From the NCBI RefSeq assembly GCF_036226365.1, contig NZ_CP108462.1:248001-312000 (forward strand): 64,000 nucleotides of DNA. The letters are read 5' to 3'. Below, one piece after another: positions 44,406-46,533 of the stretch; position 1 is the stretch's first letter, and each line of letters starts with the position of its first letter. The translations under genes were made by a program, and so were the position numbers. Below the pieces are notes generated by a model, which was given only the letters and a program-made list of their open reading frames with translations, made no database searches and was not told the origin of the DNA. Origin of the DNA: Streptomyces sp. NBC_01262. GTDB lineage: Bacteria > Actinomycetota > Actinomycetes > Streptomycetales > Streptomycetaceae.

Positions 44406-44826
44406 TCAGTGGCCGAAGGCGGGATACCCCGGCAGCGGGGGCGCGTCCAAGCCTGCGGCGACCTCGCGCAGCAGCAGCCGCATGGTCTCCGCGAGCGCCG
44501 GGAGCTCCTTCATCGTGCTGGCCATTTCCCAGCGGTGCCGCAGCACTTGGCGCCTCGTAGGGACGGGTCGTCGGGTCCGGTGGAGCGGCGCGTCCTGCGC
44601 GGAGCGCGGGAGCATGCGCACCGTCGCGTCCACCGTCCAGGCCGCTATGGCCTGACGCATGCCGGCCTGCCATACCGCGTCATCGGCCAGCGCCGGGTAG
44701 ACGGTGACGACCTGCGCGCGGTAGGTCTGCTCGGTCTGTGCGGCCAGGCGCGCCGGCAGGGTGAAGACGCACCAGCAGCTGGAGAACGGCATACGGCAGT
44801 AGGCGGGCCGTCAGGAACACCGACTG
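44406..44826 (-). pseudogene. C-terminal remnant of a disrupted phosphotransferase-like gene
   Basis: From 44804 to 44406 the frame reads AYCRMPFSSCWCVF, then LPARLAAQTEQTYRAQVVTV, and ends PLPGYPAFGH, a C-terminal domain like that of actinobacterial APH-type proteins. Upstream of 44805 the same protein appears to continue in another frame (SVFLTA), so one extra base in the G run 44805-44807 breaks the frame. There is no start codon with a ribosome site. The part joins the TnpB element at about 44827. The N-terminal remnant is at 46131-46473. Confidence 0.65.
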
Positions 44827-44960
44827 TTGACGTCCTCTCCCCCTGAAGGGGCGAGATTCTCTCCCTGGCGTTCGTCGTTGACGGCTCGCCTTGAGTGGGG
44901 TTCCTGTTTCAACGGGCGATGCCCTCCGCTTGCGCGGAGGGTCTTGCTCACCCTCCGCAG
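44827..44960 (-). ncRNA. putative omega RNA (TnpB guide RNA scaffold)
   Basis: The 3' end of tnpB and its downstream flank contain stacked hairpins: a perfect 8-bp stem with GCAA loop (44922-44941) just after the stop, and the CCCC-TTCA-GGGG stem near 44835-44855. In TnpB systems this region is transcribed as a scaffold, and the guide is the roughly 16 bases just outside the right end, here about 44826 down to 44811, which is remnant host gene. Confidence 0.5.
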
Positions 44961-46099
44961 GCGTTTTGGGTCTCCGCCTGTCCGGCGGCGACCTTGTTCG
45001 CTTCGGTCCTGATGTTGCGGGCCGCGTTTACGTCGCGGTCGTGGACGGTCCCGCAGTTGACGCAGGTCCACTCGCGGACCGCGAGGGGCTTCGGCCCGTC
45101 CTTGAAGCCGCACGCGGAGCAGAGCTGCGAGGAGGGGAAGAACCGGTCCACCTTCGCGAAGGTCCGCCCGTAGCGGGCGGCCTTGTACTCCAGCATGCTG
45201 ACGAATGCGGACCATCCGGCGTCGTGCACGGACTTGGCCAGGCGGGTGCGGGCGAGTCCCTTCACGCACAGGTCCTCCACGCTGATCGCTTGGTTCTCGC
45301 GGATCAGCCGGGTGGAGAGCTGGTGGTGGAACTCGTGCCGCGCGTCGGTGACCTTGGCGTGGGCGCGGGCGACCTTGAGCCGGGCCTTGGCCCGGTTCGC
45401 AGAGCCCTTCCGCTTGCGGGACAGTGCCTGCTGTGTGCGCTTGAGCTTCTTCTCGGCCCGGCGCAGGAACCGGGGTGAGCTGATCTTCCGGCCGTTGGAG
45501 CAGACCGCGAAGTGCGTCAGCCCGAGGTCGATACCAACCTCGCCCGCAGTGTCTGGAAGCGCCGCTTCCGGGCCGGTCTCGATGACGAAGGACGCGAAGT
45601 ACCGGCCCGCACTGTCCTTGACCACCGTCACTGTGGACGGGGTCGAGGGGAGGGCCCGCGACCACTTCACCGCGATGTCGCCGATCTTCGGCAGCGACAG
45701 CTTCCCGCCCGCCGTGATCTTCCACCGGGCATTCGCGGTGAACCGCACCGACTGCCGGGTATCCCGCTTCGACTTGAAACGGGGCACGCCCATGCCAGGG
45801 CGCTTGCCCTTCAGGCCGTCGAAGAAGTTCTTGTACGCGGTGTCCAGGTCCCGCAGGGACTGCTGCAACACCACAGATGAGACCTCGCCGAGCCAAGCCC
45901 TCTCCGGGGTCCGCTTGGCCTCGGTGATGAGCAGCTTCGACAAGTCCCCGCTCTTCGGGAACGCAAGCCCCTCGGAACGGGCAGTCTCCCGAGCACGGAG
46001 GGCGTCGTTGTAGACCACCCGCACACACCCGAACGCCCTGCCCAGCGACACACGCTGACCAGTCGTCGGGTACAGGCGGAATCTGTACCGAAGCTGCAC
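44948..46099 (-). CDS. tnpB: TnpB RNA-guided nuclease (IS200/IS605 family accessory protein)
   Basis: 383 aa, full length. The N-terminal OrfB_IS605 HTH (RYRFRLYPTTGQRVSLGRAF) is followed by the RuvC catalytic residues Asp191 in GEVGIDLGLTHFAV, Glu275 in AISVEDLCVKGLART and Asp354 in TVHDRDVNAARNI. A zinc ribbon (Cys327, Cys330, Cys346, Cys349) lies within the RuvC part. All key residues are intact, so an active RNA-guided DNA endonuclease is plausible. The start is a GTG at 46097-46099; a transposase gene (tnpA) is absent, so movement would need one in trans. Confidence 0.93.
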   Translation of the reverse strand: MQLRYRFRLYPTTGQRVSLGRAFGCVRVVYNDALRARETARSEGLAFPKSGDLSKLLITEAKRTPERAWLGEVSSVVLQQSLRDLDTAYKNFFDGLKGKRPGMGVPRFKSKRDTRQSVRFTANARWKITAGGKLSLPKIGDIAVKWSRALPSTPSTVTVVKDSAGRYFASFVIETGPEAALPDTAGEVGIDLGLTHFAVCSNGRKISSPRFLRRAEKKLKRTQQALSRKRKGSANRAKARLKVARAHAKVTDARHEFHHQLSTRLIRENQAISVEDLCVKGLARTRLAKSVHDAGWSAFVSMLEYKAARYGRTFAKVDRFFPSSQLCSACGFKDGPKPLAVREWTCVNCGTVHDRDVNAARNIRTEANKVAAGQAETQNACGG

Positions 46100-46130
46100 A
46101 CCGTGATCGTACCTACAATTGATTTATGGC

Positions 46131-46473
46131 TGTCCCCGGGCGCCATCCAGGGCTCGTCGCCCCAAGACGGCATGCCCTTGTCGTAGCGGGCCCACAGCCG
46201 CGCGAGGTCGGCGCGCCGGTGGACCGATTCGGCGGCCAGGCGGCCGAGTCCGTGGACCCAGGCGAGCAATCCGCCCTCGGCGGCCTGGGGATCGTCCCCG
46301 AGCAGAACGTCCGCCAGGGTCGGTACGGCGCCGAGATCCGTCATCACGAGCAAGGGAACCTCGGCGTCCACACCGAGCACTTCGGGACCGGCAAGGCCGA
46401 GAGAGAGCCCGGCGGCCTCGGCGGTGAAGGCCCGCAAGGACTCCGGCCCGCCGATGAAGGCTTTGACGATCAC
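46131..46473 (-). pseudogene. N-terminal remnant of the phosphotransferase-like gene
   Basis: The frame from GTG 46473 reads IVKAFIGGPESLRAFTAEAA, then LVMTDLGAVPTLADVLLGDD, and ends GMPSWGDEPWMAPGDS before it runs into the TnpB element. It resembles the N-lobe of an aminoglycoside-phosphotransferase-type protein. The catalytic loop (HGDxxxxN and the following D) that should lie between this and the C-terminal remnant is not found in the window, so a central deletion probably accompanied the insertion. Confidence 0.65.
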
Positions 46474-46533
46474 GCATGATCGAATCTATCCCGGCATCCT
46501 GCCACCAGGACCGAGAAGCCAGAATGCCGGTGG

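Follow-up and report, generated by a model that had tools for sequence, protein, structure and literature searches.

An intact tnpB gene lies in a 64,000-nt stretch of Streptomyces sp. NBC_01262 (hereafter the window) and is, with a probability of roughly 0.85, the remainder of an IS605 element that inserted 3′ of a CTAC motif and later lost its left side to a deletion. On this account an immobile tnpB persists together with the right end, and its guide addresses intact alleles of the disrupted gene. A natural pairing of TnpB guide and target is clearly documented at the locus: insertion motif, guide and intact alleles are all legible. Its value lies in this fully readable guide–target pair and in replacing the term "domesticated" with "truncated". 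The features are listed in Table 1.

Table 1. Features of the truncated element and the disrupted host gene, in window positions.
Feature	Position	Strand	Basis
Host gene C-terminal remnant, frameshift ~20 nt past the right end	44406–44826	−	Comparison with orthologs
Predicted guide, first 20 nt of the host flank; same sequence, preceded by CTAC, in the intact ortholog L072	44807–44826	−	Comparison with orthologs
Right end with predicted omega-RNA scaffold, beginning shortly before the tnpB stop codon and ending ...GTCAA	44827–44962	−	Alignment, covariation
Terminal hairpin, CCCC-TTCA-GGGG core at 44840–44851, helices 4–5	44836–44856	−	Sequence, folding, covariation
Scaffold hairpin, 8-bp stem, GCAA cap, alignment helix 3	44922–44941	−	Sequence, folding, covariation
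tnpB, 383 aa, intact	44948–46099	−	Open frame, profiles, ISDra2 alignment, active-site residues
Upstream element remnant, homologous to the tnpA–tnpB intergenic region of complete relatives	46100–46131	−	Comparison with relatives
Deletion junction, exact point ambiguous	46126–46134		Comparison with L101 and intact orthologs
Host gene N-terminal remnant, 104-bp internal deletion near 46474	46135–46500	−	Comparison with orthologs

The tnpB gene is an uninterrupted frame of 383 codons with a GTG start. Profile searches identify OrfB_IS605 (E 4.7e-29), Cas12f1-like_TNB (E 9.6e-26) and HTH_OrfB_IS605 domains in its product. The protein scores 361 bits against the NCBIfam guided_TnpB model (cut-off 100) and 387 against the IS200_TnpB exception model, under the cut-off of 425. 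The top match among solved chains is 9yyg, labelled an AI-designed nuclease, and the second is 8bf8, ISDra2 TnpB; the alignment with the latter runs nearly end to end (E 1.6e-82). As the original prediction held, all RuvC residues (D191, E275, and D354 and D356 of the HDRD motif at 353–356) and all four zinc ribbon cysteines (C327, C330, C346, and C349) are present. Combining a RuvC active site, a zinc ribbon and a TnpB profile, the protein can be placed among the RNA-guided TnpB nucleases and is predicted to have nuclease activity. It shares 90% sequence identity with the TnpB of a complete element in Actinacidiphila soli (L101).

Comparison of right ends places the terminus of the element (...GTCAA) at 44827, and the sequence from 44826 downwards is that of the host gene. 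This is the boundary originally predicted, and the roughly 16 bases proposed as the guide (44826–44811) are indeed host sequence adjoining it. The search for copies sharing the right end, suggested along with that proposal, returned many relatives, most of them ending in the same GTCAA. Right ends were located in 87 of 105 loci; 78 could be trimmed, 75 are distinct, and 35 were aligned (the window copy and 34 relatives), near-identical copies and long-insert variants being left out by choice.

The aligned right ends share a five-helix structure, with 96.8% of its 730 cells paired. Compensatory double changes occupy 87 cells of the helices; shuffles give 19.6, and sliding the pairing partners gives no more than 20. 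RNAalifold recovers 19 pairs, 14 of which show double changes. The 136 nt of the window copy (44962–44827) fold better than shuffled sequences (z −2.2), 6 of 200 shuffles being equally good. Both the GNRA-capped 8-bp stem and the CCCC-TTCA-GGGG stem that had been noted after the stop codon covary in the relatives, and the window copy thus carries the conserved right-end stems of an omega-RNA scaffold. Its terminal stem contains one unpaired G (column 145 of alignment A1). No omega-RNA family in Rfam 15 matches the right end at E 1 or better. A match to an IRES family (E 0.03) lies on the opposite strand and below the gathering score, and was taken as chance.

Complete relatives carry a Y1 tnpA gene divergent from tnpB and a hairpin left end beyond tnpA. 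A set of 31 distinct left ends was obtained from 37 pattern rows by removing three spurious rows, two duplicates and one row failing a stricter pattern (L135, which has CTAC). CTAC abuts 27 of the 31, whereas a control window placed further out has it in one case of 31; of the four left ends lacking it, two have CTAT and one has CTAA. A clean empty-site control is provided by L002, a sister copy of the own genome, whose TnpB is 89% identical to the window TnpB at the protein level and which resides in an azlD-like gene. Its flanks join as CTAC followed directly by GCC. The joined flanks match somewhere in 40 of 61 genomes, with some matches partial and the own genome included. The site is uninterrupted in all 11 relatives inspected base by base, with CTAC in 10 and CTAT in one. 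If the insertion motif also serves as the target-adjacent motif (TAM), as in ISDra2, the TAM of the window TnpB would be CTAC. A literature search found no paper on a TnpB target-adjacent motif in Streptomyces or on CTAC as a TnpB TAM; we do not claim the first description of the motif.

The disrupted gene is an accessory gene. With a threshold of E 1e-20, it occurs in 30 of the 394 family genomes, among them the own genome, and the other same-genus genomes among the 394 gave no match. The closest intact orthologs belong to other genera and share ~80% DNA identity, the ancestral allele of this species not being among them. Pfam has no family for either remnant or for the intact ortholog, and NCBIfam has none for the ortholog; by motif resemblance, the product may be phosphotransferase-like.

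The guide match was located by script in 25 of 28 intact orthologs tried (all but L074, L076, and L097). CTAC lies directly 5′ of it in 14 of the 25, and CTTC replaces CTAC in nine. A later search for CTAC plus guide added L074 (genome G245), exact and with CTAC, and L076 (G241), with CTTC. CTAC followed by the first 16 guide nucleotides, with at most one mismatch, occurs in 14 of the 394 family genomes, at a single site each, and by coordinates all 14 sites fall inside an ortholog of the disrupted gene. The reversed-pattern control gave none across the 394 genomes among the matches listed. Exact matches occur in two genomes, G245 and G288, and offer targets for a direct interference test. The host sequence adjoining the right end is therefore the sequence found after the target motif in empty alleles. 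Because CTAC adjoins the guide match in orthologs and all 14 search matches lie within the ortholog, the guide is read as addressing the intact allele. The proposed targeting of intact copies is borne out as far as the position of CTAC directly 5′ of the guide is concerned; cleavage itself is a prediction.

The own genome contains no CTAC-plus-guide target with two or fewer mismatches. With three mismatches there are four sites, the locus among them, as many as the reversed control gives. The same-genus genomes searched have no such target. The system is therefore probably idle in its own genome, and retention and homing at present lack a site to act on. The suggestion that TnpB favours retention or homing fits published models, in which ISDra2 TnpB cuts the empty donor site and thereby retains the element (PMC8612924) or TnpB shows gene-drive behavior in plasmids (PMC11870625), but it lacks a target in the own and same-genus genomes searched. 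Without a target in the genome there is no present selection by cleavage. This and the unpaired G in the terminal stem speak for a dead remnant whose TnpB or RNA no longer functions. Frame, active site and scaffold stems are nevertheless intact, and we regard such a loss of function as possible but doubtful.

At the left side, host homology reaches ~46126–46134 and element homology begins at ~46134–46131, and the gap in the host gene and the gap in the element meet at one point. The stretch of L101 from the left end to tnpB measures 760 bp, of which ~32 bp are left in the window copy; ~728 bp containing the left end and tnpA are missing relative to this complete element. The host gene lacks ~183–194 bp, L072 having 183–191 bp and L071 194 bp between the junction and the guide. 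Searches of the window for a tnpA remnant gave chance-level matches only (best E 0.05). The window copy thus possesses neither a Y1 transposase gene nor a left end beside the target motif. Since the left junction is host gene without CTAC, and both element and host DNA are gone, the locus is best described as an insertion with a preserved right end and a deleted left side; the copy is expected to be immobile. The predicted extent of 44811–46099 was right in covering TnpB and the right end, but the remnant runs from 44827 to ~46131 and its left junction is a deletion rather than a transposon end.

IS1341-type elements carry tnpB only, and the window copy likewise keeps only this gene. It could in principle be a native element of this type with its own left end near 46131, next to an unrelated host deletion; 36 of 109 loci, the window copy included, show no tnpA or HTH match, although some of these stretches end early. 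This is highly improbable. The left junction lacks CTAC, the 32 bp preceding tnpB are homologous to the tnpA–tnpB intergenic region of complete relatives, and the host and element gaps coincide. IS1341 elements also have left and right ends (PMC9956272), whereas the left end of the window copy has been deleted. The same paper discusses whether tnpB-only elements are decayed IS605 copies. The deletion itself may have arisen at random or, with rather low probability, by an aberrant transposition event or the repair of a break made by TnpB. In favour of such a route, it begins within the element and leaves the right end and tnpB, but the junction has no repeat or motif beyond a few ambiguous bases, and the results do not separate the routes.

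The absence of tnpA had originally been taken as a hint of domestication. That argument finds no support, because the deletion that took 183–194 bp of the host gene also removed the left end and tnpA and explains the missing gene. A tnpA gene missing beside an intact tnpB can thus reflect plain deletion. Domestication of tnpB for a host function after tnpA loss would account for a frame that is open, with all active-site residues, beside a host gene with three lesions, and for 24 synonymous versus 12 non-synonymous changes private to the window copy. The private changes of L101 (~34:11) and L002 (32:16) fall in the same range, however, and tnpB dN/dS is 0.19 against L101 and 0.20 against L002. 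Purifying selection on the window tnpB equals that on other copies and is not datable to after the deletion. The host remnants have dN/dS values of 0.15–0.29 against intact orthologs, like those of intact pairs (0.18 and 0.30), so the breakage appears recent and the open tnpB frame says little. No other locus in an initial set shares the host flanks past the element ends, and one strain of the species is represented. Given the similar ratios and the recent breakage, no special constraint on the window tnpB can be claimed, and domestication is very unlikely.

The truncation account can be set out as follows. The accessory gene would first have received, 3′ of CTAC, a complete IS200/IS605 element whose Y1 tnpA and tnpB were divergent; the right end and the succession of CTAC and guide in intact orthologs support this step. 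Some 0.9 kb, comprising CTAC, the left end, tnpA and a portion of the host gene, would then have been deleted up to a point shortly before tnpB, leaving an immobile tnpB with the right end. The deletion is shown by comparison, and its position after the insertion in the order of events is inferred. By analogy with ISDra2, the tnpB transcript would extend beyond the right end into the remnant of the host gene, and TnpB would retain its 3′ part as an omega-RNA with a guide of 16–20 nt. The complex would cut an incoming intact allele at CTAC plus guide. The locus could even act as a stand-alone homing nuclease locus that is unable to leave or, its CTAC being deleted, to cut itself, and that converts or destroys every intact allele of the one accessory gene arriving by gene transfer, a prospect we consider unlikely.

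The window copy resembles the ISDra2 TnpB–reRNA system (PDB 8bf8, 8h1j) in its nearly full-length protein homology and in having a right-end scaffold whose 3′ guide comes from host sequence. It differs in the target motif, TTGAT in ISDra2 and CTAC by comparison here, and in lacking the left end and tnpA. Divergent tnpA/tnpB IS200/IS605 elements (IS605c organisation of PMC9956272), such as L101, share homology in tnpB, the intergenic region and the right end, but L101 has a CTAC-flanked left end and a Y1 tnpA, and the window copy has neither. Nothing at the locus departs from published TnpB models; it is an ordinary but clean example whose parts and logic were already known.

The own genome contains 17 tnpB match segments, and tnpA lies next to some of these copies, namely L004 and L003, whose tnpB contains a TAG. 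At two of 109 loci, L002 and L031, a divergent HTH_17 gene of ~65 codons occupies the place of the Y1 tnpA of relatives, and both loci keep a CTAC-flanked left end, tnpB and the right end. The region concerned is 1160–1500 of the reverse complement of L002 (C1 ~2436131–2436471 of the own genome) and 1220–1503 of L031; the ~65-aa protein of L002 matches HTH_17 in Pfam with an E value of 8e-8.
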